This document shows positions 6,454 through 59,027 of a stretch of DNA of 64,000 nt, one piece after another. Position 1 is the stretch's first letter. Every line of letters begins with the position of its first letter. A program made the translations under genes and the position numbers. The notes beneath the pieces were generated by a model. It was not told the origin of the DNA. It saw nothing but the letters and a program-made list of their open reading frames with translations, and did no database searches. This DNA is from Metabacillus litoralis (GTDB taxonomy: Bacteria > Bacillota > Bacilli > Bacillales > Bacillaceae), in contig NZ_VOQF01000013.1 of the NCBI RefSeq assembly GCF_007994985.1, forward strand, positions 1 through 64,000, read 5' to 3'.

Positions 6454-6613
6454 GGCTGTTTTCGTAAACTTTGTTGCTTTTAATAACCTAAAGGAAACCT
6501 CACTGTATGCAGTCTAGTGGCATCTTTTCTTCTTTAAATACCTTTTAGCGTTAAACACACAGTTTTAAACAGATTATTAGGGCATATTAGCAACAATCTT
6601 TGAGAAAAGAGCC
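6454..6613 (+). mobile_element. MITE-like element, copy A
   Basis: 160-bp non-coding element. It starts GGCTGTTTTCGTAAAC and ends AGAAAAGAGCC, so its two ends are imperfect inverted repeats of about 25 bp that both carry an internal TTGTTGCT/AGCAACAA. It is flanked by a perfect 8-bp duplication TCTATAAG (6446-6453 and 6614-6621), a direct sign of transposition. Related copies occur at about 27331, 45506 and 58867. An 8-bp duplication with GG..CC ends fits elements moved by transposases of the ISL3 or IS1595 families; no transposase is present in the window. Confidence 0.85.
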
Positions 6614-6784
6614 TCTATAAGAAACATTGTTGTATTGTGAGCAATGAAATTACCGTTTAATTTTTGGTATTTCATGTGGTAGGAACTTGTTATTTGTTAA
6701 AACTTCCACCCTTTAGAAACTACTTCAAAAGCTTCAGCATATTTTTTTTATCGTATTTATATTTTCCACTTCAGGATCAAGCGT

Positions 6785-6840
6785 AAAGTTGAACGATTAC
6801 CACTTAAAGTTGAATGATTATGATAAAAAGTTGAACGATT
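6785..6840. repeat. Three 21-bp-spaced direct repeats
   Basis: AAAGTTGAACGATT (6785), AAAGTTGAATGATT (6806) and AAAGTTGAACGATT (6827) recur with an exact period of 21 bp, about two helical turns. The intervening bases differ. No gene lies immediately downstream, so a protein-binding array or relic repeat are both possible. Confidence 0.7.
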
Positions 6841-6867
6841 CCAAAATGGATGCCTGAATACAAAGAA

Positions 6868-6904
6868 AAAAAGAGTCAATCTACATCATAGATTGACTCT
6901 TTTT
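6868..6904 (-). terminator. Terminator after MFS gene
   Basis: Perfect 14-bp arms around AAAAAGAGTCAATC (6868-6881 and 6891-6904) with a 9-base loop and flanking A/T runs. It lies 60 bases beyond the stop of the minus-strand transporter gene. Confidence 0.9.
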
Positions 6905-6964
6905 GGTTAGTTACTTATATTTCTTTTCAATAACAGATTCATTTTTGTTTGCTGCTTCTGTTTT

Positions 6965-8374
6965 TTAAAGTGATTGCTGCTTTTTTTCATTAGTTTGATT
7001 GCTTTTAATAAAAAATGCAAAAATCAATCCAATTAATGAAAGTACTGCGACAACAATAAAGGCGATGTTAGCTCCAAAAATGTCAGGGTGCAAAACATTG
7101 GGTTTTTGTTCAGCAAGAGTTTCTGTAGTTGTCATTACAGTTACAAGTATCGCTGTACCAACTGAAGCTGCGACCATTCTAATCGTGTTATCCATTGCAG
7201 CTCCATGTGGAATAAGTCGCTTTGGAAGCTGGTTTAAAGCTGCAGTTTGAACTGGCATTAAGACCATAGCTAAACCAAACATTCTTACACCATACATAAC
7301 AGTAATGTATGTGAAAGTTGTTTCTGTATCAAGACTTGAGAAGGCAAACGTTGAAATGGTTAAAATCGTTAAGCCAGAAATAACTAACCAGCGAGCCCCT
7401 ATTTTATCAAAAACACGACCTATAATCGGTGAAAGTATTCCCGTAACTAGAGCACCAGGCAATAAAGCTAGGCCTGCTTCAAATGCTGTAAAATCACGCA
7501 TATCCTGCATGAATAATGGAATAATCGTTTCAACGCCAATCAATCCCATAAAAGTAATCATCCCGATTATAACGGCAAAAGGGAAAATCGAGTATTTGAA
7601 CACTCTAAATTCAAGCATTGGATGCTCTAAATGTAGCTGTCTTGTTATAAACAAAATCAGTGATATGATACCAACACTAACAGTTACTAAGGTGATGGGA
7701 TTCAACCAACCGTTGTTTCCAGCAGATGTAAACCCATAAAGTAGACCTCCAAAACCTAAGGTTGAAAAGATAATTGATAAAATATCTAATTTTGGTTTTG
7801 TGATCTCTGTTACGTTTTTTAAGGCAAATATGGCAATTAGTATATCTATAATAGCAATAGGTAATATGATTAAAAATAAGACTCTCCAAGAATAATGTGA
7901 AGTGACCCAGCCTGACAGAGCAGGACCAATTGCTGGTGCAAAGGAGATAACAAGTCCGATAAGCCCCATTGCAGCTCCACGTTTATTTATCGGGAAAATC
8001 ATTAAAAATACAGTCGTCATAAGAGGAAGCATAACACCAGCTCCACTAGATTGAATCACTCTACCCAATAATAAAACCTCAAAATTCGGAGCAATCGCAG
8101 CAACTAAAGTTCCAAAAGCAAAAACACTCATAGCGGTGATAAAAAGCTGCCTTGTTGTAAATTTCTCTAATAAAAATGCGCTAATTGGAATCATAATCCC
8201 ATTCACACACATAAACACAGTTGTTAGCCACTGTGCACTATTTGCAGTAACACCCATCTCTTTCATAATTGGCGGAATAGCCGTTATCATTAATGTTTGA
8301 TTTAATATGGCAATAAATGAGCCTGCAAGAAGCAGTACGACAATTGTCGTTTTATTATAGCTTGATGATACCAT
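6965..8374 (-). CDS. MFS transporter, DHA2 (EmrB/QacA-like) family
   Basis: About 469 residues with roughly 14 hydrophobic segments, as in the 14-TM drug:H+ antiporter family. Visible family signatures are LNQTLMITAIPPIMKEMGV in TM1 and GRVIQSSGAGVMLPLMTTVFL. It probably exports drugs or other lipophilic compounds across the cytoplasmic membrane. ATG at 8374 with AAGGG eight bases upstream is preferred over the TTG at 8413. It is a single-gene unit with no adjacent regulator. The substrate cannot be read from sequence. Confidence 0.85.
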   Translation of the reverse strand: MVSSSYNKTTIVVLLLAGSFIAILNQTLMITAIPPIMKEMGVTANSAQWLTTVFMCVNGIMIPISAFLLEKFTTRQLFITAMSVFAFGTLVAAIAPNFEVLLLGRVIQSSGAGVMLPLMTTVFLMIFPINKRGAAMGLIGLVISFAPAIGPALSGWVTSHYSWRVLFLIILPIAIIDILIAIFALKNVTEITKPKLDILSIIFSTLGFGGLLYGFTSAGNNGWLNPITLVTVSVGIISLILFITRQLHLEHPMLEFRVFKYSIFPFAVIIGMITFMGLIGVETIIPLFMQDMRDFTAFEAGLALLPGALVTGILSPIIGRVFDKIGARWLVISGLTILTISTFAFSSLDTETTFTYITVMYGVRMFGLAMVLMPVQTAALNQLPKRLIPHGAAMDNTIRMVAASVGTAILVTVMTTTETLAEQKPNVLHPDIFGANIAFIVVAVLSLIGLIFAFFIKSNQTNEKKQQSL

Positions 8375-8615
8375 CCTAGATCCCTTCCCTATCTCTACTT
8401 TTTTTACAGACAAATTATTATAAACAATTAATGAAAGATATGAAAGTAATTAGCTTTCCGAAATAAATAGTTATTTCTTATATGCAAATCTTAAAAATTA
8501 ACCATAGCTAAAATTTACTATATTTAAATAAGTATTATGAAGTCATAAGTCGTTATTTTTAGCATAATGATGTTTTTTAACTATATTTATATAACGTTTT
8601 TGCGATTTATAACCG

Positions 8616-8647
8616 AAAAAAAACACCACTCTATAAAGAATAGTGCT
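8616..8647 (-). terminator. Terminator after dbpA
   Basis: On the minus strand AGCACTATTC pairs with GAGTGGTGTT (with G-U pairs) around a short loop and is followed by a T-run (A residues at 8616-8622). It lies 23 bases beyond the dbpA stop. Confidence 0.8.
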
Positions 8648-8669
8648 TCATCATTTGAGATAAAAAACA

Positions 8670-10115
8670 TTATTTAATTGCAATGCTTACCTTTAATTTC
8701 TTACCTTTTACCGTTGTATGCTCCATTGCTTGTAGAACGACTGATCCTTTTCCATTTAGAATATCAACATATGTTAACTGATCTTGAATGGTAATGATTC
8801 CGATGTCCTCTGATGTTACACCTGGGATATTTGAAATTGTACCAACGAAATCAACTGCTCTAAGCTTTTTCTTTTTTCCACCGCTAAAATGTAGCTTTGT
8901 AATATCTTTATTAATTCTTGCTGTTTTGTTATTTTTAACAATTCTGCGTCCACTTATCTTTTCATCGAAAGCTGCTTGCCCTTTTGTTACTTCTTCATTT
9001 GTAGGAGCCTCAATCGTTGGAATTTCAAAGTTGATGTATCTTTCGATAGCTCTAATGAATTTTTCTTCATACGGTGTGGCAAAAGTAATGGCTTTCCCTT
9101 TATTACCTGCACGACCTGTTCGACCTGTTCTATGAACATAACTTTCTTTTTCCATTGGAACATCATAGTTTATAACTAGTGTTACATTATCAATATCAAT
9201 TCCTCTTGCAGCAACATCAGTTGCAACGAGATAGCGGAAATTACCAATTTTGAAGCCGTCCATTACAGCGAATCGATCTTCCTGTTCTAAACCACCATGA
9301 AGTTTTTCTACAGAGTAGTTTGCATGATCTAATTGAGAGTAAACAGTATCAACATTTTCTTTTGTTCGGCAGAAAATGATACAGCTGTCAGGATTTTCGA
9401 CAACAGTTAAATCTTTAAGAAGTGATATTTTTCCTTGTTCCTTCACTTCAATTTTACTATGCTCAATTGTACTTGTTGTCATCTCTTTAGCTGCAATTTC
9501 AATATGTGATGGATTTTTCATGTACTTATGACAAAGATTTTCGACATCTTTAGGTAAAGTTGCAGAAAAGACCATTGTTACTCGATCAGTAGGTAGCTCT
9601 TTAATAATGGCTTCAACTTCATCAATAAAACCCATATTAAGCATTTCATCAGCTTCATCAATCACAAGAAAATCAATTTTTTCGAGTGATAAAGTTCCTC
9701 TTTCGATATGATCCATTACACGTCCAGGTGTACCAACAACAACATGAGTTTTTTGTTTCAATTCCTCTTTTTGTTTACTAAACGGTTCCTTACCATATAC
9801 AGCCATTGCTTTAATTCGTTTAAAACGTCCAATATTTGTTATATCTTCACGAACTTGTGCTGCAAGCTCTCGTGTAGGTGTTAAAATTAGTGCTTGTGGT
9901 TTTCTTTCTTCCCACTCGATCATTTCACAAAGTGGAATTCCAAAGGAAGCTGTCTTTCCGCTTCCAGTTTGTGACTTAACTACAAGGTCTTGTTTATTGA
10001 ATGCTTTTGGTAAAACTTCACGTTGAACCTCTGTAGGTGTTGAGTATTTTAATACCTTTAATGATCTGTTTATTTCATCACTTAATTGGAACTTTTCAAA
10101 ATTATCTTCTATCAT
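8670..10115 (-). CDS. dbpA: DEAD-box ATP-dependent RNA helicase DbpA (YxiN-like)
   Basis: 481 residues, the usual length of Bacillus YxiN/DbpA. The helicase core shows the Q motif ([10 protein letters not shown]), [25 protein letters not shown], the DEAD box ([13 protein letters not shown]), the FSATLP motif and [10 protein letters not shown]. The C-terminal part (about 405-481, [37 protein letters not shown]) is the RRM-like domain that in DbpA binds hairpin 92 of 23S rRNA, so it acts in 50S subunit assembly. It is a single-gene unit. Confidence 0.93.
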
Positions 10116-10319
10116 AGTTAAACCTCGTTTTTTTTTTGATTATTCGACTTTATAATAAGCTTATTTAAAAAATTCATTTTTATCATTTTTGTTGATAGAG
10201 TTAATGCTGTACAAACTGCATATATGCTTAGCTAAGTCATTTAACAAAAATATAAAAAAAGTCTTTAAAAAGGATCATATGAAAAATCTGAATATGTTTA
10301 TTATACGTTAAAATTCAAA

Positions 10320-10349
10320 GAAAAAGCAGGTAACCATAAAAGTTGCCTT
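10320..10349 (-). terminator. Hairpin after small ger-linked gene
   Basis: On the minus strand AAAAGGCAAC pairs imperfectly with GTTACCTGCTTTT and is followed by T residues. It immediately follows the small gene's stop codon. Confidence 0.6.
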
Positions 10350-10517
10350 TTAATTTCTATCATCTTGATCTTTTAAGCTTTCTTTTTTCCAGCTTGGATT
10401 TCCTTTTTCATATGTAATATGGCTTATGCTAAACATGATAAAAGGAATGAAAAAAGCTAATAAGCTATAAAGAACTTGCTTCCAGGTTGGTATGAGCACT
10501 TCTAGAAATTCTATCAT
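10350..10517 (-). CDS. Small membrane protein downstream of ger operon
   Basis: 55 residues from ATG 10517, which has AGGAG seven bases upstream. It contains one clear hydrophobic helix (about residues 13-32) and a charged tail. Longer open reading upstream is an artefact, because it runs through an inserted repeat. Family knowledge: some gerA-type operons carry a fourth small membrane-protein gene. Its position suggests it was the fourth gene of this operon before the 184-bp element (10546-10729) split it off. Function in germination is inference. Confidence 0.6.
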   Translation of the reverse strand: MIEFLEVLIPTWKQVLYSLLAFFIPFIMFSISHITYEKGNPSWKKESLKDQDDRN

Positions 10518-10545
10518 TTGTTTTCTCCTAATTCTCTTTTTGAAA

Positions 10546-10729
10546 GGCTCTGTTAAACTTTGTTGTTGATTTCCGTTACAGGCATTCGCTTTCCGCGGGC
10601 GGTCCGGGGGCCTCCTCGGCGCAAGCGCCCTGCGGGGTCTCCCTTTGACACGCTTCTCCCGCAGGAGTCTCATGCCTTTCACTCTAATCAACAATGTGCT
10701 AAAAATCAACATTAACCTTTAACATAGCC
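10546..10729. mobile_element. GC-rich MITE-like element with exact 8-bp duplication
   Basis: 184-bp non-coding element. The left end GGCTCTGTTAAACTTTG and the right end (complement) GGCTATGTTAAAGGTT form imperfect inverted repeats of about 27 bp that continue to TGTTGATTT. A perfect 8-bp duplication TTTTGAAA flanks it (10538-10545 and 10730-10737). The centre (about 10574-10676) is strikingly GC-rich with several short stems (GCGGGCGG, CTCCTCGGCGC, GCGCCCTGCGGGG). A similar GC-rich block is, from memory, a common dispersed repeat in Bacillus genomes. It lies between gerC and the small fourth gene. Confidence 0.85.
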
Positions 10730-10777
10730 TTTTGAAATAACGATTAAAAGTAAGTAGTAGTTGCTATATTAAACATA

Positions 10778-11944
10778 CTACTCTTCTAATGAAGATCGGA
10801 TAATTGTTCCGCTTCTATCGACAACCGTGTTCACATTTACTTCAATTTCACTTTGTTGAAAATAATTTTCACCAATATCCCAATCGTTTTTCATATCCTC
10901 CCATTCATTTGGATATTTCACCCGAAACTTTTGACTGAATCCAAAAATATCTGTTTTAAGATCATCACGCACTTTCTTTATTGCAAGTTTTGTAAATTCA
11001 TGAATTTTATCTTTTATTGCTTCCTCAGTCTGGTTAATTTCTTCTTCATCCAAAAGATCAAATGATTTATAAGATTCAGGAATTGTTCCGGTTGTTTTAA
11101 TAGTAACGTTAAATTTTATCTTTCCTTTTTCATAAACAGGCTCTATATCCGTTTTCACCTTGTCCATTTCATACACAACAATTTCGTCTTTAACTTTAGC
11201 TTCCAGTAAGCCACCTTTTAATTCTCCTGTAATAAAGTTTACCCCTTCTGTTGCGTCTTCCTCAATAAAACCTACAAGTTTGTCTGTATACCCATTAAAA
11301 ACAGCTTGACCAGATATTTTCACTTCTTCTGGATTTAATTTAACAATCATTTGAATCATATAACTATCATCACCAAGCAAATTTTCGTGGATTTTACCAA
11401 TTCTAGTTGGTGGTACCATACGTGCATTTTTATAATTATTTTTTGAGATCGATTTAATATAAATAGCTGGTAGCTTTTCATTTTTAGGGGTGATTTCTAG
11501 AATGTCTCCAGCTTTTTCAGGTGTAACCATAATTTGTGTTCCCCTACGCATTTCTGGATATCTAAGAAAGTAATCGAGAATATCGGGGAAATGATCGGAC
11601 TTTGCTAATTCTTCAGAAACAACAATGAGCTTAATGTGTTCATAAAAAGGTGAGCGGTTCGTTCGTGCAGCTACTCTTCGTACAGTTTCAAAGATTGTAT
11701 TTCCTGAAGACACAATGTTTTGGAAAGCATCCCCAGAACCTCCTTCACCACTTCCCCCCTGACTTGATTCAGTAGGTATAACAAATTGCTGTGATAATGA
11801 AAGTGGTCCTTCATCTTCAGTTTCTTCATTTAAATCAACCCCAACACCGATAACAAATCCACGTTCTTCAATCTCTATTGAATCCCAGCAGCCTGACGTA
11901 ATGAATAAGCAAAAAATTACTATAAAAAATTTCCATTTACGCAT
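10778..11944 (-). CDS. gerC: Spore germination lipoprotein, Ger(x)C family
   Basis: 388 residues. The N-terminus is a lipoprotein signal (KFFIVIFCLFITSGC) with the lipobox cysteine at residue 19, followed by WDSIEIEERGFVIGVGVD, the family hallmark. It is the C subunit of a GerA-type germinant receptor, anchored on the outer face of the spore inner membrane. It overlaps the upstream gerB gene by 8 bp, so translation is coupled. The length matches the family. The receptor's germinant cannot be deduced. Confidence 0.92.
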   Translation of the reverse strand: MRKWKFFIVIFCLFITSGCWDSIEIEERGFVIGVGVDLNEETEDEGPLSLSQQFVIPTESSQGGSGEGGSGDAFQNIVSSGNTIFETVRRVAARTNRSPFYEHIKLIVVSEELAKSDHFPDILDYFLRYPEMRRGTQIMVTPEKAGDILEITPKNEKLPAIYIKSISKNNYKNARMVPPTRIGKIHENLLGDDSYMIQMIVKLNPEEVKISGQAVFNGYTDKLVGFIEEDATEGVNFITGELKGGLLEAKVKDEIVVYEMDKVKTDIEPVYEKGKIKFNVTIKTTGTIPESYKSFDLLDEEEINQTEEAIKDKIHEFTKLAIKKVRDDLKTDIFGFSQKFRVKYPNEWEDMKNDWDIGENYFQQSEIEVNVNTVVDRSGTIIRSSLEE

Positions 11945-13049
11945 AATGCTTGACCCCTTTAATCCGTTTTATCCATATGATCATGAGTAAAATGAGTGGG
12001 AAGATCACTCCGTAAAAGAATCCAATTAAGGCAATTGTTTTACCTACTAATTGGATTTGAAATGCAGTATCAGGTGACATGGCAATTAAATAAGTAATCG
12101 GAGAAACCACTAAAATCAACGCTTTTCTCTGTACTTTAAACATTGTTTGAAATAAATGAATCGTAATATCTAGTGCCATTGATGCAGTATTAAATACAGT
12201 CATAATCCATACCGTGAAAAAAATCGACTCAAATCTTTCTACAAATCCCCCTGGTGCTTCAATTTCTTTTGCTACTTCAATTGTTGGATAGATGATTTCA
12301 GCTGTCGCTAAATTACCAAATACAGCGATAGTGACTGTATAAATGATCAAATAAAGGATAATAGGTATCCCAATACCGATAACAGTCATTTTTGGTGCTG
12401 TTTTAGGTGATCTCATGAATGAAATATAAACAAGGACAACAACATATCCAATAAAAGAAAAAACGGTTTCTTGGGCTGCCTGCCAATATCCACTAAATGA
12501 GCTAGTAAATGCTGGTCTTAGATTACTTAATTCAAATAATGGAATATTAAAAAATTGTACAAGTAGTGTCACAGCTAGAACAATTGGTAAAAACATTAAA
12601 TTAAGTCGCACTAAAGCGATTCTTGATCCTGATACTCCATAAATAACAACTAATAAAAACACGAGTGATATGGCTTCAATTGGTGTTTGATCAAACATAT
12701 ATAGCTTTGATATATTTGTAATCACTCGTGTTTCTAAAGAACAAGTTAATAAAAAAGCAATCGCTAATATAAATGTTAAAGCATAAGCCACAGGCTTGGT
12801 AAGAAGTGATGATGTATATTCTAAAAATGTCTTTTTAGGAAAAGTGGAAACGATCTTAGCTAATAACCAACCAAAAAAAAGAAAGAATATTCCGCTACCT
12901 AATATCGATATCCATCCATCAAAAGTATTTGTATGTTTTGCAATTAAACGAGGTAAAGTTAAAACTCCTACTCCGATCATCATCGAGGAAATAATATATG
13001 TTAGTTCTTTACCACCGATTTCTTGATCAGCGTAATCGAATGTTTTCAT
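11937..13049 (-). CDS. gerB: Spore germination permease-like protein, GerB family
   Basis: 370 residues with about ten hydrophobic segments, of the amino acid/polyamine/organocation transporter-like endospore family. The start (ELTYIISSMMIGVGVLTLPR) carries the TM1 unwound-helix pattern with which GerB subunits bind the germinant in the inner membrane. It sits three bases after gerA and overlaps gerC by 8 bp, the classic A-B-C order. Confidence 0.92.
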   Translation of the reverse strand: MKTFDYADQEIGGKELTYIISSMMIGVGVLTLPRLIAKHTNTFDGWISILGSGIFFLFFGWLLAKIVSTFPKKTFLEYTSSLLTKPVAYALTFILAIAFLLTCSLETRVITNISKLYMFDQTPIEAISLVFLLVVIYGVSGSRIALVRLNLMFLPIVLAVTLLVQFFNIPLFELSNLRPAFTSSFSGYWQAAQETVFSFIGYVVVLVYISFMRSPKTAPKMTVIGIGIPIILYLIIYTVTIAVFGNLATAEIIYPTIEVAKEIEAPGGFVERFESIFFTVWIMTVFNTASMALDITIHLFQTMFKVQRKALILVVSPITYLIAMSPDTAFQIQLVGKTIALIGFFYGVIFPLILLMIIWIKRIKGVKHYA

Positions 13050-13052
13050 AAA

Positions 13053-14612: not shown

Positions 14613-14816
14613 TCTAAACACCTCTTAACAAAGAATGGAAGGATAGCTTCTTCTATTCATTTTTTACCAAGGGTTTGTGGAATATACGCTTTGAAATAGG
14701 GAGATATAAAATGATTGACTTATGTGGTTTTGTTGTTGGGGGCAATTAATGAAAACCAAGAAAAATCTGAAAATCTAAGACTAATCAATAAACTTCAAAA
14801 TAATGACTTACCATAC

Positions 14817-14862
14817 AAAAAAAGAAACAGCACAAGAATGAGTTCTTTGGTACTGTTTCTTA
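14817..14862 (-). terminator. Terminator after SNF2 helicase gene
   Basis: Arms AAGAAACAG and CTGTTTCTT (9 bp) close a loop that has an additional short stem; on the minus strand it is followed by a T-run. It lies about 30 bases beyond the helicase stop. Confidence 0.85.
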
Positions 14863-14888
14863 GTGTTTAAATGGGAAATTGTTTTCGT

Positions 14889-18450: not shown

Positions 18451-18454
18451 CGAA

Positions 18455-27330: not shown

Positions 27331-27459
27331 AAGATATTCTCGTGAACTTTGTTGCTGTGACTATCTTGAAAGAAGCATAGAGTTATTTCCTTTTATGCGC
27401 AGCATCATGGTTTTAATAGATAACTTGGTCAATTAGGAACAATATCTCAGAAAAGAGCT
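27331..27459 (+). mobile_element. MITE-like element, copy B (degenerate)
   Basis: The left part (TTCTCGTGAACTTTGTTGCT) and the right part (AGGAACAATATCTCAGAAAA followed by GAGCT) match the ends of copy A (6454-6613), but the interior is shorter and diverged. No target duplication is recognisable. Its right end stops 7 bases before the AAGGAG ribosome binding site of the plus-strand gene at 27481, so any transcript of that gene begins in or crosses the element. Confidence 0.55.
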
Positions 27460-27480: not shown

Positions 27481-28518
27481 ATGCATTCCAATCAATCTAA
27501 CAATGAACAAATGAAACTTATGCAACAACAGATTGAATTTTTAAAGCAACAAATACAAAATTTAAACTGTAATTCTGATTTCTCCACTATTTATGAGTAT
27601 TATATAAATGGTATTCAGATTGACAAGGTTAAAGGATCACTTCAATTAGGGCAACTAATTAGTGAGGAGATTCGGGACAGTGAAGGTGTACACAGATTTT
27701 ATATTGGAGATATAAAGATCACTGAAATTGAAGATTCTGGTACAGTTGGATTAGGTGTTACGGAGAAAATGTCTAATAGAGAAAATAGTGTTTCTGCTGA
27801 TGACGCTGTTGAAGAAATTGCACAAATTTATCAAAAGATAACTCAGCTTTTGGCAATAGAAGAGCTGCCGAGTTTTTTTGAGAAGTTAAGCAGTAAAAAG
27901 TCTGTATTAGTTGCGGTATCGGATAGTTTGGATGAAACTTGGCAATCTAGTGAGAAGTTTTCCCTCTTTTATGAGAAAATATTATCATTATTAAATGACA
28001 CAATTCATTCTAAATTCAAGCAGGTGGATCAAAAATTAGATGATCGCTTATACTTGGCTTTTGCAGATAGTATTGAAGAAAAGGTTAAAACGTTAGTTGT
28101 TATTTCAGCTTTACTACAAGCAGCATTACCAGGTTATTTTAAAAAATACGAAATGGATCTGATGATAAATCAATCCTTTATAAAATCAAAAGTTGATACA
28201 ATTCACCAAATTTTAGAATTCATCAAAAAGACCTTTCAATTAGAAGAACTTCCAGAGGCTTTTGAAGAATTAGAAGAAGATTCTAAAGTGTTACGATACT
28301 ATTTTCATTTTGTATTAGCTCCTTTAGTGGATAATAAAGATGTTATTGCTTATTTTCAAAGTTTAAGAGAATATTTAGAGGAAATTGATCCAGTAATCAA
28401 GCTATCGATGAAAAACTTGAACTCAGAAGAACGAGCATTTCTTTTCAGTACATTAATCGAATTTATCGATATTTATCAAAAGCATATTGTACTTGAATAT
28501 TCAATGTTATTGGTGTAA
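27481..28518 (+). CDS. GerPC-like N-terminus fused to a helical domain
   Basis: 345 residues from ATG 27481 (AAGGAG at eight bases). The N-terminal coiled coil (MKLMQQQIEFLKQQIQNL) and IYEYYINGIQIDKVKGSLQLG match the GerPC pattern (coiled coil, then IEY.FD.LKIERLDGTLNIG). FYIGDIKITEIEDSGTVGLG then resembles the core of GerPB/PD/PE. The remaining 250 residues are helical and acidic, with two similar segments around LLAIEELPSFFEKLSS and FQLEELPEAFEELEED, suggesting an internal repeat. GerPC itself is about 200 residues, so this is a larger relative. Spore role is inferred from the GerP-like start and neighbours. Confidence 0.55.
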   Translation: MHSNQSNNEQMKLMQQQIEFLKQQIQNLNCNSDFSTIYEYYINGIQIDKVKGSLQLGQLISEEIRDSEGVHRFYIGDIKITEIEDSGTVGLGVTEKMSNRENSVSADDAVEEIAQIYQKITQLLAIEELPSFFEKLSSKKSVLVAVSDSLDETWQSSEKFSLFYEKILSLLNDTIHSKFKQVDQKLDDRLYLAFADSIEEKVKTLVVISALLQAALPGYFKKYEMDLMINQSFIKSKVDTIHQILEFIKKTFQLEELPEAFEELEEDSKVLRYYFHFVLAPLVDNKDVIAYFQSLREYLEEIDPVIKLSMKNLNSEERAFLFSTLIEFIDIYQKHIVLEYSMLLV

Positions 28519-45505: not shown

Positions 45506-45667
45506 GGCTGTTTTCGTAAACTTTTTAGTGTTTTGAATCCTATTGGAAACAACTCTGTATAAAGTCTATTGGCATCCTTTGTTCTACAAATTGTAATTTT
45601 TATGCGATGAAACACTTGTTACAACAGTTAAAGATGTCAATTAGCAACAATCTTTCAGAAAAGAGCT
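45506..45667 (+). mobile_element. MITE-like element, copy C, inside the cbi operon
   Basis: 162-bp non-coding copy: left end GGCTGTTTTCGTAAACTTT, right end AGCAACAATCTTTCAGAAAA then GAGCT. Sequence flanking it is a T-rich imperfect 8-bp duplication (TTTTTTTA left, CTTTTTAA right), the right copy containing the cbiH stop codon. The element therefore sits exactly between cbiH and cbiX and must be transcribed through. Its inverted ends could fold into a long mRNA hairpin. Confidence 0.8.
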
Positions 45668-45671: not shown

Positions 45672-47312
45672 TTAATCTCCACATGGAGCTGGTTCTATTT
45701 CGATCTTTGGTGTCATGTCTTTATATTGGAAGTTTTGAATTTTACCAACACGTTTGAAATATTTAAAAAAACGTTCATTTGGATGTCCTTTTTCTTTGTA
45801 CTCTAATACGATATTTTCAATCAATTCAACAATGTCATCAGGCTCAATTCCTTCTGCAACAGGCTGCCCAGCGTGAGCGGTTCTACCTACAGTTTTTGCT
45901 CCTAAAAACAAATCGAATTTCCCTTTTCTAAAAACAATACCAATATCTTCATTAACAGCCCCAAAGCAAGCCATTCCACAACCATTAAAACCGAGCTTTA
46001 ATTCCTTTGGTAAATCAAGACCACTTAGTTTTTGATGGATTTTTTCAGCATGAGGTATGGAATCTTTTTTCTCACCTTCACAAAAGTCACAGGCTTTTAT
46101 TTGAAAAACATCACCAATTGGTTCTAAAATAAAGCCGACATCTGTTAATTTTTTTGTTACATCTTCTGGCTCAGCTGTTGGAACCTTTACATAAATTTGA
46201 TGATGTGGTGTATATTCCATTGATCCTTTTTTACCAACAACTTCTGCTAATGTAATAAGTTGTGTTGGTGTGAACTTTTTGTTTGCAATACCAGGACTAA
46301 CAGCAAATTCGAAGATAGATTCAACAGGATGATGAACAGCAGCAGGAGTGGTATCATAAGTCTGCTTCTTTTCAACTTTAGTAAGAGCTTCAATGGCTAA
46401 CTCTAAGGAAGAACCTGTTGCTGCTGTAGCTAGTCTTCTTTTTTCCTTAACTGCAACATTTGTTACTGAATCATTTTTCCCTTGATGAAGGGCCCATGGT
46501 TCGTTTTCATGGCGCAATCTTTCATGTGGTCTTAATCTCTGCTCTGTTGTATTTAACGTATATTTCCGTTGATATCCTCTTGGTGTGATAATTTTATTGT
46601 CATATAAGAACGTGGAAGAATTTCCAATGACGACTGTTGTTAACATCCCAATATCAAAATCAAGCATATGTTCAAGATCTGTAATTTCAACATGCTGACG
46701 ATCACGGTAAGCACTTTTTACAAGACCTACCGGTGTACTTGGTGAACGATATTTTAGTAAAATTCGTTGCGCCTCTTGAATTTGTCTTGTACGACGACCG
46801 CTTTTCGGATTATAGAAAGTAACAACAAAATCAGCTTGTGCTGCAGCTTCTATTCGTTTTTCAATTAAATTCCATGGTGTTAAATGATCACTTAAACTAA
46901 TTGTGCAGGCATCATGCATAACAGGAGCACCAAGCAAAGATGCACAAGAATTGATCGCAGATATTCCTGGAATTACCTCTACTGAAACACCTGTTGCTTC
47001 TTTCCAGCCCTTTTCTATAAGTACCTCGTAAACAAGACCTGCCATCCCATAAACTCCAGCATCACCACTAGAGATCACCGCTACTGTTTTCCCTTCTTCT
47101 GCGTAACGAACAGCTGCTTGGGCACGACTTACTTCCTCAGACATACCTGTACTAATGATTTTTTGATTTGTGAGGTAATCTTTAATCAAATCAACATATG
47201 TTTTATAGCCGATAATATAATCGCTTTCTTTAATTGCTTCCATTGCTCGATTTGTCATATGTTCAAAGCTTCCTGGACCAAAGCCAATGACAAGTAACTT
47301 TCCTCGCAACAT
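45672..47312 (-). CDS. cbiH: Precorrin-3B C17-methyltransferase CbiH60 with Fe-S domain
   Basis: 546 residues, about twice a normal CbiH. Residues 1-about 245 are the methylase (IGFGPGSFEHMTNRA, ISSGDAGVYGMAG, GISAINSCASLLGAPVMHD). The C-terminal half resembles a nitrite/sulfite reductase ferredoxin-like half domain, with cysteines CDFC and NGCGMACFGA. This is the CbiH60 design described for B. megaterium, where the [4Fe-4S] centre is needed for ring contraction. The linker (about 260-330) is variable. ATG at 47312 has AAAGG eight bases upstream. Confidence 0.94.
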   Translation of the reverse strand: MLRGKLLVIGFGPGSFEHMTNRAMEAIKESDYIIGYKTYVDLIKDYLTNQKIISTGMSEEVSRAQAAVRYAEEGKTVAVISSGDAGVYGMAGLVYEVLIEKGWKEATGVSVEVIPGISAINSCASLLGAPVMHDACTISLSDHLTPWNLIEKRIEAAAQADFVVTFYNPKSGRRTRQIQEAQRILLKYRSPSTPVGLVKSAYRDRQHVEITDLEHMLDFDIGMLTTVVIGNSSTFLYDNKIITPRGYQRKYTLNTTEQRLRPHERLRHENEPWALHQGKNDSVTNVAVKEKRRLATAATGSSLELAIEALTKVEKKQTYDTTPAAVHHPVESIFEFAVSPGIANKKFTPTQLITLAEVVGKKGSMEYTPHHQIYVKVPTAEPEDVTKKLTDVGFILEPIGDVFQIKACDFCEGEKKDSIPHAEKIHQKLSGLDLPKELKLGFNGCGMACFGAVNEDIGIVFRKGKFDLFLGAKTVGRTAHAGQPVAEGIEPDDIVELIENIVLEYKEKGHPNERFFKYFKRVGKIQNFQYKDMTPKIEIEPAPCGD

Positions 47313-47838: not shown

Positions 47839-47921
47839 TGTACAAATACGCATAAACATACAAATTGCGATATTTATAACACATCTACCTATTTTCCCGT
47901 AGGTATGTGTATACAATAAAT

Positions 47922-48087
47922 TAGGCAGGTTTCCTGACTTAGGATCATAGATTACATGCGTCTTCCCGATTTTGTTAAATCAGTGACGGTTAGCATGCAA
48001 GCTCCCCATAACAGTGGCGGGTACCGTGACGGTTTTTCACCGTGCTTCCCTTTTAACCAAGCAAATCAATGCTATGGCACCTAATTT
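47922..48087 (-). ncRNA. Cobalamin riboswitch, proximal copy of cbiW operon
   Basis: On the minus strand the aptamer shows its conserved blocks in order: AGGTGCC near the 5' end, AAAGGGAAG, the GGTGAAAAACCG region, CCCGCCACTGT, and AAGTCAGGAAACCTGCC at the 3' end. It binds adenosylcobalamin and should repress the 20-gene cbi operon. A possible own promoter (TTGGAC/TAATAA) lies upstream at 48115-48144. Confidence 0.95.
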
Positions 48088-48114
48088 GATTTTTTCGTTT
48101 AGCTAGTTTAATGG

Positions 48115-48339: not shown

Positions 48340-48437
48340 AAAACGACAGCAGCATGAAACAAGAGTAATACTTGTTATATGAATTGCGATCGTTTCACCT
48401 TCTCACCTCCCGAAGAAACTGAAACTTGATAAATTAA

Positions 48438-48611
48438 GACAGGTCTCCTGACTTGTGCTTCAATCTACTTTAAGACCTTCCCATTTAAAACCTTTATACT
48501 AGAAAAGGATTTCAAACAGTGGTTATCTTATTTCGTCCACACTTACAGTTGCGGGAACAGCTCTGGAGTTTCACCAGATTCCCTTTTAAGCCGATAGGCA
48601 TCTTAACTTAT
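48438..48611 (-). ncRNA. Cobalamin riboswitch, distal tandem copy
   Basis: Conserved blocks on the minus strand: GATGCC near the 5' end, AAAAGGGAATCTGGTGAAAC, CCCGCAACTGT (one base differs from CCCGCCACTGT, an allowed position), and AAGTCAGGAGACCTGTC at the 3' end. It is followed by a terminator but by no real gene: only a 7-codon frame (48375-48398, MKRSQFI) with a good binding site. It has a strong promoter of its own. Confidence 0.93.
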
Positions 48612-48647
48612 TGCTTCTATTTAATTATGTATGAATGTCTATTTGCT

Positions 48648-48676: not shown

Positions 48677-48802
48677 TAACATTTTTACATCTATCATTGA
48701 TAAAAGGTAAATACAATTAAGATTCATTGATTGAATTTGCTGAAATTTATGTTTTTTTTAGATGATTTGCTTACTATGATTTAGTTATATCTAAATAATG
48801 AT

Positions 48803-52168: not shown

Positions 52169-52222
52169 CAAGCCTTTCTTGTTTGATTAGAGGCTATCAT
52201 TGTGAACAAATAGATAAAAATC

Positions 52223-53179: not shown

Positions 53180-54636
53180 ATCTTTTTCTTCCGTTTTTCA
53201 TAGTTATGTAGTGCCTCAATTAAACCATTGTAGACAACCTTTCCTATGGCTTTTCCAAGCTTTGTTCCTGAACCAGCATATGTTGTTGATTCACCATTTT
53301 GTGTTGATGCTATTAATGTGGAATCTGTAGATGTACCAGTGGCAATCGTTTGGGTGTTGGGATCTTTTATTTGTAGATCTGTAAATACTTTTGTTTTAGC
53401 TTCTGTTGCAGATTGGATACTATTAACTAGTGCTCCATCTGTTAAATGTGCATCAAGAAATATCATGATATTAACAGTTCCAATTTTATCGCTAGAATTT
53501 TGGTGCTGCTGTGTGATGTCAACAGCATTTCCAACACCTGCTGTAATGACTGATAAAATTTCAATGCCTTCTATATTCTCTTTAATAACACTTTTATCCT
53601 CTAAAATAACAGCTGTCATCATCCCAACTGTATCATAAGTCGAAATCTTTGCTTGTTGTAGCCAATTTAGAATATCTTGCTTTGGATTTGAACAATTGTA
53701 ATTGTAGTGAACATGAAAATTACAGAAATTTCTACTCCAATAAAGTCCTTCACCTAATACAGCGTTTGAAATTGTTCGCATAGGATGTGGGAAATGAATA
53801 TGGATAAAGTTCTTTGTTGTGTTAATTTGATAATCAAGATTTGTATGTAGTTGTTTCGTTTTATTCGGTATTAAGGAAATTTGCGGTTTTGCAATCACAG
53901 GGTGAAAGTTTGTTTTGATAGCTACTTCATAAACTTGTTGTAGTTTTTCTTCTTTTTGTAATAAAGATAGATCACCTGTTTCAACTAAAAGACCATGATG
54001 TAATAAACCTATTTTATTTGCAAATAGTGAAGCGATATTTAAATCATGTAAAATCGCAATAATCGTTAATTCATGATTTTTTTGATACTCTTGTAAATGT
54101 TGAAGCATTTCAAGAGTATGCCTCATATCCAAATGATTGGTTGGTTCGTCTAATATCAATATCTTAGGCTCTTGTGCTAATGCTTTCGCAAGCAAAACAC
54201 GTTGTTTTTCTCCACCACTTAACTGTTTAAATAGCTTATTTCTATATTGATCTACATATGTTTTTTCCATTACATCTTTGACAATCTCTTTATCATAATT
54301 TGATATAGACTTAAAAAATCCCTTTTGATGTGGATAGCGACCAAGGCTGACAATCTCTTCAACAGAAAAGTCGAATTCTACAGCTGCTTCTTGTGATAAA
54401 ACAGCCATCATTTCCGCTCTTTCTATAGAGGAATACTGTTGCAATAGCTTATTCATAATTGTGATTGAACCTAATTGTAATGGCAATACACCTGTGATTA
54501 ATTTACTTAGGGTGGTTTTTCCGCTGCCATTTGGACCAATTAATGCATAAAAGTGCCCCTTATCAATTGTAAGGCTGATATTTTTAACAATGCTCTTTTT
54601 CAAATAGCCACCTGAAACATTTTGAAGTGTTATCAT
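53176..54636 (-). CDS. BtuD-CbiZ fusion: corrinoid ABC ATPase with amidohydrolase
   Basis: 486 residues. Residues 1-about 250 are an ABC ATPase (GPNGSGKTT, LSGGEKQRVLLAK, ILILDEPTNHLD, AILHDLN) of the FecCD/BtuD type. Residues about 275-480 are a CbiZ domain (HPMRTISNAVLGEGLYWSRNF, GMMTAVILEDKS, SVITAGVGNAVDIT, LTDGALVNSIQSATEAKTKVFTDL, ATGTSTDST). CbiZ removes the aminopropanol-nucleotide loop of foreign corrinoids. The fusion therefore couples uptake with remodelling; B. subtilis YvrA is, from memory, organised alike. Confidence 0.9.
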   Translation of the reverse strand: MITLQNVSGGYLKKSIVKNISLTIDKGHFYALIGPNGSGKTTLSKLITGVLPLQLGSITIMNKLLQQYSSIERAEMMAVLSQEAAVEFDFSVEEIVSLGRYPHQKGFFKSISNYDKEIVKDVMEKTYVDQYRNKLFKQLSGGEKQRVLLAKALAQEPKILILDEPTNHLDMRHTLEMLQHLQEYQKNHELTIIAILHDLNIASLFANKIGLLHHGLLVETGDLSLLQKEEKLQQVYEVAIKTNFHPVIAKPQISLIPNKTKQLHTNLDYQINTTKNFIHIHFPHPMRTISNAVLGEGLYWSRNFCNFHVHYNYNCSNPKQDILNWLQQAKISTYDTVGMMTAVILEDKSVIKENIEGIEILSVITAGVGNAVDITQQHQNSSDKIGTVNIMIFLDAHLTDGALVNSIQSATEAKTKVFTDLQIKDPNTQTIATGTSTDSTLIASTQNGESTTYAGSGTKLGKAIGKVVYNGLIEALHNYEKRKKKI

Positions 54637-54642
54637 AACTCT

Positions 54643-55686
54643 CTACCCCCTTCCAAGTCGCTCCCTAATTAGCAATAATGCAAATACAGGAGCTCCAATT
54701 AAAGCTGTAATAACACCTATAGGTAACTCGCTAGGTGCGATAATTGTACGAGCAAACAAATCTGCAAGAACCAGGTAACCTCCTCCTAATAACAATGATA
54801 GAGGTAGAACTTGTTTATGATTTGGTCCGATTAATAATCTCGTAAAATGAGGAATAACTAATCCAACAAAGCCAATTGAACCAGAAACTGATACAGCAGC
54901 TCCTGTTAATAAAGATGCACCCACAATAATGAGTATTTTTCCTTTTCGAACATTCACACCTAAATGCTCTGCTGCTTCTTCTCCTAATGCAAAAGCATTG
55001 AGTTCGCGTGCACGGAAAAGTAAAAAACATGCACCTATAATAAAAAATGGTATTAGTAATTTTACATGGCTCCAGCCTCTCATCCCAATATTCCCCATCA
55101 ACCAATACAAGATGGCACGTGCATCTTCTTGAGGACTTAACGCGATTATTAGTGAAACAACTGCACTTATAAAAGAACTCACTATAATGCCAGCTAATAT
55201 AATCGTTTCAATGGAAAGTGTCTTGTTTGCTAAAGCGGTAACGCTAAATACAATAAACATTGCAATAAATCCTGAGATAATGGAGATGATTGGTAATGTA
55301 TAAACTCCCAAAAAAGATATGGAAATTTGAAAATATAAAACTATTACAGCACCTAGAGCTGCACCAGATGATACACCAATAGTGAAAGGATCAGCGAGTG
55401 GATTTCGTAAAAGTCCTTGAAAAGCTGCACCTGCTAATGCTAACGCGGCACCAACAAAGAAAGCTAATAATACTCGTGGAAAGCGAATTTCCCAAATGAT
55501 TCGTTCAGCAATTAGTGGAATGTTTTCACCAAATAGTTGTGTTTCTATTATTTTGCTTGATAAAATGTCGAGAATTACAGTTATTGGATAATGTACACTA
55601 CTAATGAACAAACCTAGGAGAGCTGCCAAAATGACAAACACTCCTGTTAGTAAGTACATCCAAGCTAGTTTATTTTTCAAAAACAT
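54643..55686 (-). CDS. btuC: Corrinoid ABC transporter permease BtuC
   Basis: 347 residues with about nine or ten membrane helices of the FecCD family. Signatures: RFPRVLLAFFVGAALALAGAAFQGLLRNPLADPFTIGVSSGAALGAV, GFVGLVIPHFTRLLIG and ELPIGVITALIGAPVFALLL. It forms the membrane channel for corrinoids. ATG at 55686 lies inside btuF (17-bp overlap), so translation is coupled. Confidence 0.9.
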   Translation of the reverse strand: MFLKNKLAWMYLLTGVFVILAALLGLFISSVHYPITVILDILSSKIIETQLFGENIPLIAERIIWEIRFPRVLLAFFVGAALALAGAAFQGLLRNPLADPFTIGVSSGAALGAVIVLYFQISISFLGVYTLPIISIISGFIAMFIVFSVTALANKTLSIETIILAGIIVSSFISAVVSLIIALSPQEDARAILYWLMGNIGMRGWSHVKLLIPFFIIGACFLLFRARELNAFALGEEAAEHLGVNVRKGKILIIVGASLLTGAAVSVSGSIGFVGLVIPHFTRLLIGPNHKQVLPLSLLLGGGYLVLADLFARTIIAPSELPIGVITALIGAPVFALLLIRERLGRG

Positions 55687-56668
55687 CTGGATATATGAGC
55701 TTCGCAAGAGTCTCAACTCCATCAATTAATCTTGGACCTGGTCTTGTGACGGTATCATTATTTACATCAAATACTTGCTCTTGTTTTATTGCTGGCACTT
55801 CATCCCAACCAGCACGGCTTAATACGCCTTCAGTTGGATTTTCAACATAGTAACCATAAGTAGTTATGATAACATCTGGATTTAATGTGACGATTTCTTC
55901 TTCTGTCATTTTCACCCAACCTGTTTGATCACCTGCTGTATTAATGGCATTAATGGACTCTAGCATTTCATGCATAAATGTGTTTTTACCTGTTGTAAAA
56001 ATGTCAGGAGATGGTGACACTTCTACCCATACCTTTTTCTTTTCTGTTACTGCTTTTGCTTTTTCTCTTATTTCTTCAAGACTTTCTTTCATTTCTGTAA
56101 CAACTTGTTCCGCTTCTTCTGATGCACCAGTTACCTTACCAATTAAAGCGATGGATTGGTATACTTGATCAAAGGATTCCGCACTATTAATCACAATGAC
56201 GTCTGTTCCAGCTTCTTTAAATTGTGTTAACACATCTCGATTATTATCATGTTGATATTCTGTAACTAATGCAAGATCTGGCTGTAATGCTAATATTTTT
56301 TCAACATTTAATTGCTGACCACCGATTTTTTCAAGCTCAGCTGTTTCTTCAGGATAATTACTATACTCATCTACAGCAACTAGTTTTTCGCCTTGTCCAA
56401 TTGCATATGTAATTTCTGTATTACTTGGGATTACTGAAACAATTGTTTTAGGTTCTGATTCGATCGTTACTTCCTCACCAGTACCATCTGTAACTGTAAC
56501 AGGAAATGGAGCATCCACTTCTGTTGTGCTAGCATCCTCAGTATTTTCTGTTGTTGTTGAAGAATCTTTTTCTTGTTGAACAGAATCAGTTCCACAACCA
56601 ATTGTGAACATCATCAGAAGTACAAAGATTAAGCTAAATAATGTCCACTTTTTTCTACTTGTTGTCAA
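55670..56668 (-). CDS. btuF: Corrinoid ABC transporter binding lipoprotein BtuF
   Basis: 332 residues. A lipoprotein signal (TLFSLIFVLLMMFTIGC) is followed by a Ser/Thr-rich linker and the class III binding-protein domain (PKTIVSVIPSNTEITYAIGQGEKLVAVDEYSNYPEE, NPDVIITTYG). It captures cobalamin or cobinamide outside the membrane. TTG at 56668 has AAGGAG eight bases upstream; the GTG at 56677 overlaps it. First gene of a riboswitch-controlled operon. Confidence 0.92.
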   Translation of the reverse strand: MTTSRKKWTLFSLIFVLLMMFTIGCGTDSVQQEKDSSTTTENTEDASTTEVDAPFPVTVTDGTGEEVTIESEPKTIVSVIPSNTEITYAIGQGEKLVAVDEYSNYPEETAELEKIGGQQLNVEKILALQPDLALVTEYQHDNNRDVLTQFKEAGTDVIVINSAESFDQVYQSIALIGKVTGASEEAEQVVTEMKESLEEIREKAKAVTEKKKVWVEVSPSPDIFTTGKNTFMHEMLESINAINTAGDQTGWVKMTEEEIVTLNPDVIITTYGYYVENPTEGVLSRAGWDEVPAIKQEQVFDVNNDTVTRPGPRLIDGVETLAKLIYPDVFEK

Positions 56669-56698
56669 TGCAAACACTCCTTATCATTTTTAGCCAAC

Positions 56699-56727
56699 AA
56701 AAAACGCCTATTCCATAGGAAAAGGCG
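56699..56727 (-). terminator. Riboswitch-controlled terminator before btuF
   Basis: On the minus strand CGCCTTTTCC pairs with GGAATAGGCG around TAT, followed by TTTTTTG. It lies between the cobalamin aptamer and btuF, so it is the probable expression platform. Confidence 0.85.
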
Positions 56728-56880
56728 ATAAATGCAGAAAAATTGTGGTTTTTTTTAGGCCTTGTTAGATAAAAAGAATGCTCAAATTCCTTTAATTAAC
56801 GTCATTGTTTTCAGAAGCCTCTAATTAAACACCGCATTATAAAGCCATTCTTTTCCTCGAAGAATACTTACTGTTACAAT

Positions 56881-57030
56881 AGGCAGGTCTCCTGGCTTAT
56901 GCGTCATAATAAAATCTTCCCCTTCCCATACAAAGCGTACAGTGGCTATTTAGAAGATCACTCAGCAATTACAGTGGCGGGACCGCGTTGGATTATAACC
57001 AAACTTCCCTATTATCCTAAAGCTTAAAGA
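56881..57030 (-). ncRNA. Cobalamin riboswitch of btuF operon
   Basis: Minus-strand blocks: AATAGGGAAGTTTGGTTATA, AATCCAACGCGGTCCCGCCA then CTGT, and AAGCCAGGAGACCTGCC at the 3' end. It lacks the extended 5' stem of some classes. It should turn off uptake and late-pathway genes when adenosylcobalamin is plentiful. Confidence 0.94.
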
Positions 57031-57084
57031 AGTCTTTTCTTTGAAAAATGAATGCTACCGATCTTTCACCGAGTGATAAGATCA

Positions 57085-57112
57085 ATAGTAGCAATCTATC
57101 AAAAAAAGCCTT
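57085..57112. repeat. Remnant of MITE end
   Basis: AGTAGCAATCTATC followed by AAAAAAAGCC resembles the right end of the MITE copies (AGCAACAATCTTTGAGAAAA, GAGCC). No partner end is clear, so it is a remnant, lying in the leader between promoter and riboswitch. Confidence 0.4.
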
Positions 57113-57158
57113 TAATTAGGACCTATTGTCGAAATATTTGTTTTTTGTGACATTGACA

Positions 57159-57187
57159 ATTATAAATGAAGTTATATAGTGTGTAAA
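57159..57187 (-). promoter_or_regulatory. Sigma-A promoter of btuF operon
   Basis: TTTACA (57182-57187) and a perfect TATAAT (57159-57164) with a 17-base spacer on the minus strand. The leader of about 120 nt before the aptamer contains a MITE remnant. It overlaps the end of cobT by no more than a few tens of bases. Confidence 0.8.
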
Positions 57188-57212
57188 TAAAGAATAGTTA
57201 TCATTTTCTAGT

Positions 57213-58274
57213 TTAACTTTTTTCTGATACACCCGCTGATTCGAAGGTTGCCATCTCATTCATCATATTCGATGCAGCTTGAATAAGTGGAAACGCAAGA
57301 GCCGCTCCAGTACCTTCGCCTAATCTTAAATCCAACTGTAATAATGGTTGTTTTTGTAGAAATGACAATGCATGACCATGACCTTTTTCCTGTGATTGAT
57401 GCCCGGCAATCAAATAGCCACTTACTTTTTCATCCATGAGTACAGCTAATAGCGCAGATGCGGTACATATAAAACCATCAATAATAACAGGTACTTTTTG
57501 TTCAGCGGCTTTAAGTATTGCACCAGTCATACCAGCTATTTCTAAACCACCAACCTTTGATAAAATATCAAATGGGTCATTTGGGTTCGGTTTTCGGACT
57601 AAAAGTGCATTTGTTATAATTTCAATCTTTTTTTCTCTCATGTGTTCAGAAATACCAGTTCCATAACCAACAGCATCTTCTACTGAACATCCAGTAATTA
57701 GAGCGGTGATCGCACTTGCTGATGTTGTATTTCCAATACCCATTTCACCAACGATAATCGTTTTAGCTCCTTCATTAATAAGCATCATCGCTGTTTCTAT
57801 GCCAACTTGTAATGCCTGATTAACCTCATTATTATTCATAGCATTTTCAAGGGCGAAATTATTTGTTCCGTTCATGACTTTCTTTTCTTCTAACTTATTA
57901 TGTTTTAATTCTTCTGCAACACCAATATCTACAATTTTTAACACAGCCTGTATTTGCTTAGCAAACACATTAATTGCTGCTCCACCATTTAGAAAATTAT
58001 AAACCATTTGTGCTGTTACATTCTTTGGATAAGCTGAAACACCCATTTCTGTAATACCATGATCTGCTGCAAACACAGCAATTCCAGGTGGTGATACTTC
58101 AGGTAAGGGGTCATTTGTTATTCCAGCTAGTTGAATCGCAAGGTCTTCTAGTTTCCCTAAACTTCCGAGTGGCTTTGTTAGTGAATTGATATGTGTTTTA
58201 GCAGTAGTCATCGACTCTGCATTTAGTTTTTCTATTCCTTTTATTGTGTCCACAATAGCTTTCGAAAAAATCAT
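57213..58274 (-). CDS. cobT: Nicotinate-nucleotide:DMB phosphoribosyltransferase CobT
   Basis: 353 residues. LTKPLGSLGKLEDLAIQLAGI, FAADHGITEMGVSAYP, VGEMGIGNTTSASAI and RLGEGTGAALAFPLIQAA (catalytic Glu) are CobT signatures. It makes alpha-ribazole phosphate from the DMB produced by BluB. ATG at 58274 follows GTGAG; a TTG at 58277 is adjacent. Second gene after btuR, 18-20 bases downstream. Confidence 0.94.
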   Translation of the reverse strand: MIFSKAIVDTIKGIEKLNAESMTTAKTHINSLTKPLGSLGKLEDLAIQLAGITNDPLPEVSPPGIAVFAADHGITEMGVSAYPKNVTAQMVYNFLNGGAAINVFAKQIQAVLKIVDIGVAEELKHNKLEEKKVMNGTNNFALENAMNNNEVNQALQVGIETAMMLINEGAKTIIVGEMGIGNTTSASAITALITGCSVEDAVGYGTGISEHMREKKIEIITNALLVRKPNPNDPFDILSKVGGLEIAGMTGAILKAAEQKVPVIIDGFICTASALLAVLMDEKVSGYLIAGHQSQEKGHGHALSFLQKQPLLQLDLRLGEGTGAALAFPLIQAASNMMNEMATFESAGVSEKS

Positions 58275-58294
58275 CAATGTAATCTCACTTTCTA

Positions 58295-58837
58295 TTAATA
58301 TTCAATACCCTTAACAGCAGGAATTCCTTCATCATAATAATGCTTCTCGACATTGACAACAGACACAAGATCTGCGAGTTCTATAATTTCATCCTTAGCA
58401 TGTCTTCCGGTAATAATTAAATTAACATGGCTAGGTTTCGTGCGAATAAGTTCTTTCACTTCTTCAATTGGTAATACATCATCGATTGGAAACGAATCGA
58501 TTGCCAAGGCATTATTTAATTCATCTAATACAACAACATCATATTGACCAGACATAACGGTATCTTTCGCAATTTTCCACGCTGATTTTAAAGCTGTTCG
58601 ATGAATCTCAGGTGTTTTCGTCCATGTAAACCCTTCTCCAAGCTGAATCATTTCAACTCCTAGTTTTTCTAATGATATTTTCTCACCATATGTACGTTTA
58701 TTTGATTTAATAAATTGTAAAACCTTTACTGAAAGTCCTTGACCCACAGCTCGAACTGTTAATCCAATTGATGCTGTAGTTTTACCTTTTCCTTCTCCTG
58801 TATAAACAAGAGTTAATCCTTTTTGTTTTTCGCTCAT
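58295..58837 (-). CDS. btuR: Corrinoid adenosyltransferase (CobO/BtuR type)
   Basis: 180 residues. YTGEGKGKTTASIGLTVRAVGQG is the P-loop, with VLQFIKSNKRTYGE, YDVVVLDELNNAL and PSHVNLIITGRHA typical of the CobA/CobO/BtuR family. It adenosylates cob(I)yrinate diamide and scavenged corrinoids with ATP. GAGGAGA is well spaced from ATG 58837. First gene of its operon, behind a riboswitch and an inserted repeat. Confidence 0.94.
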   Translation of the reverse strand: MSEKQKGLTLVYTGEGKGKTTASIGLTVRAVGQGLSVKVLQFIKSNKRTYGEKISLEKLGVEMIQLGEGFTWTKTPEIHRTALKSAWKIAKDTVMSGQYDVVVLDELNNALAIDSFPIDDVLPIEEVKELIRTKPSHVNLIITGRHAKDEIIELADLVSVVNVEKHYYDEGIPAVKGIEY

Positions 58838-58866
58838 TTAGATCTCCTCATTTCTTTTTAAAACAA

Positions 58867-59027
58867 AGCTTTATTTTGAAAGTTTGTTGCTAATTGCCCT
58901 AATTACATACTGAAAATCGTTTTTTTATCGTATTTAAGTACAATCTTTAGAAGAAAAGATACCTCTAGACTGTATACGGTGCTGTAGCCATCAATTTACT
59001 AAAAGCACAATGTTTACGGAAACAGCC
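58867..59027 (-). mobile_element. MITE-like element, copy D, in btuR leader
   Basis: 161-bp copy on the minus strand: it starts GGCTGTTTCCGTAAACATTG, has GTATACAGTCTAGAGGTATC in the middle (copy A has GTATGCAGTCTAGTGGCATC), and ends AGCAACAAACTTTCAAAATA then AAGCT. The flanks are an imperfect 8-bp duplication (TAAAACAA, TACAAAAA; 6 of 8). It lies between the riboswitch terminator and the btuR ribosome binding site. Confidence 0.8.

Follow-up and report, generated by a model that had tools for sequence, protein, structure and literature searches.

Short dispersed intergenic repeats are known in Bacillaceae, as exemplified by the bcr repeats of the Bacillus cereus group. Insertion sequences of the IS1595 family generate a target-site duplication (TSD) of 8 bp, and a terminal GG is stated, in the parts of the source used here, for the related eukaryotic Merlin elements and not as a rule for IS1595 (PMC8101967). 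A MITE derived from this family, with ISHwa6 as its putative parent, is listed for Haloquadratum walsbyi with a length of 165 bp, inverted repeats (IR) of 25 bp, direct repeats (DR) of 8 bp and seven copies (PMC3852290). Correia elements, in the excerpt on which we draw, are described as situated for the most part directly upstream of genes, and are associated with promoters, an IHF site and cleavage by RNase III (PMC10969869).

The window (the whole 64,000-nt stretch of Metabacillus litoralis DNA analysed here) holds five repeats of 128-184 bp, too short for a transposase gene, which an earlier note had described as mobile, non-coding and placed a few nucleotides upstream of ribosome binding sites (RBS). 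The repeats proved to be real and to lie where they had been located, and their mobile, non-coding nature was borne out by 8-bp duplications, by copy-free sites in relatives and by ends like those of IS1595-family insertion sequences. Because such ends are those of the IS1595-family insertion sequences of relatives, we conclude that four of the repeats (copies A-D) are non-autonomous MITEs of the IS1595 family, and that the fifth, a GC-rich element, belongs to a second family of IS1595-type MITEs. These MITEs have very probably been inserted at AT-rich sites and persist as tolerated passengers, their closeness to the RBS being a result of short gaps between genes.

Copies A-D form one family: their four-copy alignment has a mean column identity of 72%, and the profile built from the own genome recovers all four. 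The element is ~160 bp long, with imperfect terminal inverted repeats of ~24 bp (GGCTGTTTTCG.. / GGCTCTTTTCT..). Copy A (6454-6613, forward strand) is a full-length member flanked by an 8/8 TSD (TCTATAAG/TCTATAAG), and copy B (27332-27459, forward strand) is shortened to 128 bp, with 7/8 matches in the register used (TTAGTTTA/TTCGTTTA). Copy C (45506-45667, forward strand; TSD 6/8) is antisense to cbiX (start 45481) and sits between the cbiX RBS and the stop codon of the gene at 45672-47312. Copy D (58867-59027, reverse strand; TSD 6/8) is sense to btuR (start 58837), between the btuR RBS and the T-tract of a cobalamin riboswitch terminator (59031-59060); the riboswitch itself (59137-59323, reverse strand; Rfam RF00174, 128 bits) lies outside the copy. 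The GC-rich element (10546-10729, forward strand) belongs to a separate family with other ends (GGCTCTGTTAAA.. / GGCTATGTTAAA..), and is flanked by a TSD (TTTTGAAA/TTTTGAAA); it precedes a 55-aa ORF (start 10517).

Several features of the neighbouring genes were recorded along the way. The gene at 45672-47312 is a single gene whose product is a fusion of a tetrapyrrole methylase domain with a nitrite/sulphite reductase 4Fe-4S domain, and the minus strand carries four cobalamin riboswitches in less than 12 kb (47907-48099, 48421-48620, 56865-57052 and 59137-59323). The gene next to copy B (27481-28518), read as GerPC-like in the earlier note, had no Pfam match at E 0.001.

Both families are abundant. 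The profile of the 160-bp family gave 104 matches, 62 of them near-complete, in 2.06 Mb of the 4.88-Mb genome, and a pattern search of the whole genome found 93 left ends with at most three mismatches. The sampled DNA (2.064 Mb in total) comprised sample one (C1:1-800000, C45:100001-500000 and the window) and sample two (C56:1-400000 and C23:1-400000); 42 of the 104 matches, which were incomplete, and one copy overlapping a called gene were left out before counting. For the GC-rich family, the profile had 69 matches in sample one, among them repeats with other ends, and 34 near-complete members were kept over both samples. An 8-bp TSD with 7-8 matches flanks 35 of the 62 near-complete copies of the 160-bp family; in the 44 copies of sample one the mean match was 6.2/8, against 4.07 (sd 0.18) for re-dealt flanks. 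In the GC-rich family, scored at whichever of 25 registers matched best, 18/34 members have an 8/8 TSD. The targets of the 160-bp family are AT-rich, with the consensus TTWWWWAA, so the target preference suggested earlier does exist for this sequence, but the placement data below do not support one for the zone 5-20 nt before an RBS.

Copy A belongs to a young subfamily with four more copies in the own genome at 94-99% identity and one 100% identical copy in the relative G003; the 160-bp family has therefore moved recently. This twin lies near an ORF which, as labelled from its sequence, reads like a single-strand binding protein. At least 10 of 30 relatives have a match to the family at E 1e-6, with at most 27 candidates scored per genome; among the matches listed, those in three relatives (G003, G011, G014) are full-length and those in the other seven cover ends only. 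Four plasmid records match, over 27-33 nt at the element ends only. Neither family was recognised among the matches listed when the literature on repeats and MITEs of Bacillus or Metabacillus, and on MITEs of IS1595 type, was searched, and a search with the element end sequences gave no match.

The parent type could be named from elements in relatives. An IS1595 element of 1698 bp in G001 has a 343-aa open frame and an 8/8 TSD in both copies examined, one of 1612 bp in G023 has a 341-aa open frame and a 7/8 TSD, and a shortened element of 1200 bp in G003 has an 8/8 TSD. The left end of the MITE is identical to the two ends of the G001 element at 23/28 and 26/28 positions, to those of the G023 element at 23/28 and 24/28, and to the better end of the shortened G003 element at 24/28, whereas the best chance match in the control, ISL3 and IS1182 loci amounting to 229,474 nt when both strands are counted, with one MITE (locus L223) masked, was 20/28. 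Ends of the GC-rich family's type were found on another G003 element, which measures 1690 bp, is flanked by a TSD (ATATAATT/ATATAATT) and has a 342-aa transposase, for which NF033547, PF12762 and the N-terminal zinc ribbon PF12760 all scored above cut-off. Three proteins from G000 and G003 were tested, and all are IS1595 transposases by NF033547 (NCBIfam) and PF12762 (Pfam), and the DDE_Tnp_IS1595 domain was detected with PF12762 in the G001 and G023 loci. An intact IS1595 element was not found in the own genome, a draft of 75 contigs, whose single IS1595 match is a truncated 234-aa transposase without recognised ends. ISL3 (PF01610) and IS1182 (PF13751) were also considered as parents; the own genome had no match to either, and the ends seen in the loci retrieved did not fit.

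Three MITEs in other relatives (L135, L136 and L147, in G008 and G013) carry A-type IS1595 ends around a GC-rich core, which is identical to window positions 10576-10700 at 82/103, 92/109 and 97/116 positions; six elements were compared, of which these three were similar and a fourth only weakly so. Judging from these alignments, MITE cores and ends seem to be exchanged.

Turning to placement, genes were called by a custom script combining a coding score and a Shine-Dalgarno score (65 genes in the window), and the called starts of the four element-adjacent genes agreed with those given earlier. The distance from element end to called Shine-Dalgarno site is 7 nt for copy B, 12 nt for copy C and 16 nt for the GC-rich element, just as the earlier note had it; for copy D it is 18 nt instead of the 17 nt claimed. 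Copy A is 117 nt from the nearest called RBS. We compared the distance between element end and called RBS with that of every intergenic site, after taking out the repeats and weighting the sites by the target profile. Three of the four copies of the window fall in the zone of 5-20 nt (P = 0.0026), this being the sample that prompted the hypothesis. Outside the window the figures are 5/39 in sample one (expected 8.5%, P = 0.23) and 2/18 in sample two, which was fetched after the test had been fixed (expected 9.7%, P = 0.53), or 7/57 combined (95% CI 5-24%), for an expectation of 8.9% or 5.1 copies (P = 0.24). Without target weighting the expectation is 7.1% (P = 0.11), and with each copy's own gap held fixed it is 7.0 copies, against the 7 observed. 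The GC-rich family has 2/33 in this zone, and 400 kb of the relative G011 has 2/9 (P = 0.19).

A general placement 5-20 nt before the RBS is thus not borne out by the 57 copies outside the window (2.0 Mb of the 4.88-Mb genome; 5.1-7.0 expected) or by the GC-rich family. The earlier note had named the lack of an excess in this zone as what would refute it, and the comparison, run on 2.0 Mb, came out against the claim. There may be a weak excess near the RBS, because 9/57 copies lie in the wider zone of 0-20 nt (9.2% expected, P = 0.076; sample one 7/39, P = 0.052) and 17/57 in that of 0-50 nt (21.9% expected, P = 0.10).

The short distances within the window can be read from the gaps themselves. 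Before insertion, the gap measured 88 nt for copy B (between divergent genes), 20 nt for copy C and 68 nt for the GC-rich element, and in gaps of these sizes an insertion would fall 5-20 nt from the RBS with a probability of 0.42, 1.00 and 0.49, respectively. At copy D the gap upstream of btuR extends over 1060 nt as far as the next gene, the modelled chance of the copy's placement being 0.09, and here the argument requires the riboswitch and its terminator to be counted as occupied; because these fill the gene-proximal part of the gap (59137-59323 and 59031-59060), some 20 nt between T-tract and RBS would have been free for an insertion that leaves the riboswitch unbroken.

The history of the sites was followed in relatives. 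At cbiX, nine genomes (L167-L175) have a short gap without the element, the profile finding no match in the seven given to it. The gap is often 16-23 nt in further genomes (e.g., 20-23 nt in L291-L295), and its range is 11 to 501 nt (26 of 80 loci examined); as far as can be told, another gene order precedes cbiX where it is larger. By eye, ~20 nt of one end remains at the spot of copy C in G003 and G011, where the profile gave no match. At btuR, G011 has a decayed copy at the position of copy D and G003 one in opposite orientation, ~22 nt upstream of the start. The element is absent from six other genomes (L202-L207), one of which (L203, from G012) shows by eye a different-looking insertion of ~170 nt, apparently between riboswitch terminator and RBS. 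Next to the gene at 27481, there is a decayed copy in G011 and none in G015.

We therefore propose the following course of events. A transposase supplied in trans would recognise the inverted ends of ~24 bp and insert the element at an AT-rich TTWWWWAA site, where the 8 bp are seen to be duplicated. Insertions would survive where gene, start signal and terminator stay unbroken; in a compact operon region, the free gaps would measure only ~20-90 nt, so that a surviving copy would end near a stop codon, a terminator or an RBS. Copies once inserted would then be tolerated and decay.

The alternative that survives best, unlikely as we consider it, is that the preferred context is the stop codon, a TAA within the AT-rich target, the copies thus marking gene ends. 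Outside the window 13/57 copies are no more than 8 nt away from a stop (6.7% expected, P = 8.5e-5), or 13 against 7.1 expected with own gaps fixed (P = 0.003). However, this pattern was noticed post hoc in sample one (10/39), and it fades in the later data: 3/18 in the sample fetched after the test had been fixed (P = 0.14), 0/9 in G011, 3/27 for the later samples pooled (P = 0.29) and 1/33 in the GC-rich family. Among the 57 placed own-genome copies outside the window, 1/50 stop-facing ends lies 9-30 nt from the stop.

It is a good deal less probable that the repeats are regulatory, kept by the RBS (compare the neisserial Correia element) as hairpins or processing sites that tune translation or mRNA stability. 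The cluster of 3/4 in the window points that way, and MITE-mediated effects of this kind are reported for Correia elements in the part of the source used (PMC10969869); outside the window, as seen above, there is no clear excess (7/57, and 2/33 for the GC-rich family). Folding was compared with that of shuffled sequences. The 62 copies of the 160-bp family fold better on average (mean z -1.84 on one strand and -1.90 on the other, with z below -2 in 30/62 and 31/62 copies), yet the transcribed strands of copies B, C and D, the ones near translation starts, do little or no better than shuffled sequence (z -0.03, -1.08 and -1.06). Copy A, which is not near a start, has z values of -2.2 and -2.7. 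The GC-rich element reaches -3.3 in the direction in which its downstream ORF is transcribed and -4.8 in the other, which slightly raises the odds of the regulatory reading. The hairpin that had been predicted is therefore present in the family at large and in the GC-rich element, but hardly in the three 160-bp copies near starts. Orientation to the downstream gene, window included, is evenly divided, with 10 sense and 10 antisense copies at gaps of 0-50 nt and 33:36 over all start-facing sides, and that only ~20 nt of copy C are left in G003 and G011, with the cbiX RBS retained, also speaks against such a role. Nothing in placement, fold or orientation shows a common regulatory role, although single genes may be affected.

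The 160-bp family has one further conserved feature, a central block of 22 bp (AGTCTAGTGGCATCTTTTCTTC; consensus ~57-79, 6511-6532 in copy A). In the 27 copies with at most six TSD matches, identity to the consensus is 86% in the block, 85% at the ends and 67% in the other interior, and in the one-third of copies whose interiors have diverged most it is 75% in the block and 85-87% at the ends. Copy B retains little of the block (30%), and one other copy none of it. With at most four mismatches it occurs 57 times within or close to family members in 2.06 Mb and once elsewhere; at this threshold the IS1595 loci L250-L260 gave no match, and L281-L283 gave one, ~1 kb outside that IS1595 element (L282:4626). 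The block may serve transposition. It could instead be a signal that acts through a host factor or in RNA processing, the family then being a dispersed cis-acting element used by some genes, btuR included; we regard this as highly doubtful, its odds being lowered because the block is lost in diverged copies. This second idea points to btuR, where copies are seen in both orientations across related species.

That the transposase targets the RBS context itself, or structures near it, is the least credible reading. In its favour, the same btuR start has two opposite copies (copy D in G000 and G011, another in G003), so that the element was either inserted twice or inserted once and inverted. Against it, the counts equal the expectation from gap size and an AT-rich target, the 57 own-genome copies showing no such preference beyond gap size, and the TSD consensus TTWWWWAA is without a Shine-Dalgarno-like sequence.

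Insertion at AT-rich sites followed by survival in tight gaps thus remains the reading we strongly favour, and it settles a plausible but misleading pattern: a short distance to an RBS is by itself no evidence of regulation. Moreover, the parent type, IS1595, is now named for two abundant repeat families of a Metabacillus lineage, and both are therefore easy to annotate and usable as insertion markers.

Compared with the known systems, copies A-D share the 8-bp TSD and the ends of IS1595 insertion sequences, which unlike them carry a transposase gene. The bcr repeats of the Bacillus cereus group resemble the 160-bp family in being short dispersed intergenic repeats of Bacillaceae, a likeness of description. 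Like this family, the Correia/NEMIS elements of Neisseria, as far as they are portrayed in the source excerpt, are MITEs of similar size, intergenic and present in many copies, but their placement immediately upstream of genes is not shared (7/57 copies at 5-20 nt and 17/57 at 0-50 nt). A close counterpart by published description is the Haloquadratum walsbyi MITE, which is alike in size, length of the ends, 8-bp duplication and IS1595 parent; it belongs to an archaeon and has seven copies in the entry consulted, whereas the 160-bp family has 62 near-complete copies in 2.06 Mb and a conserved central block.
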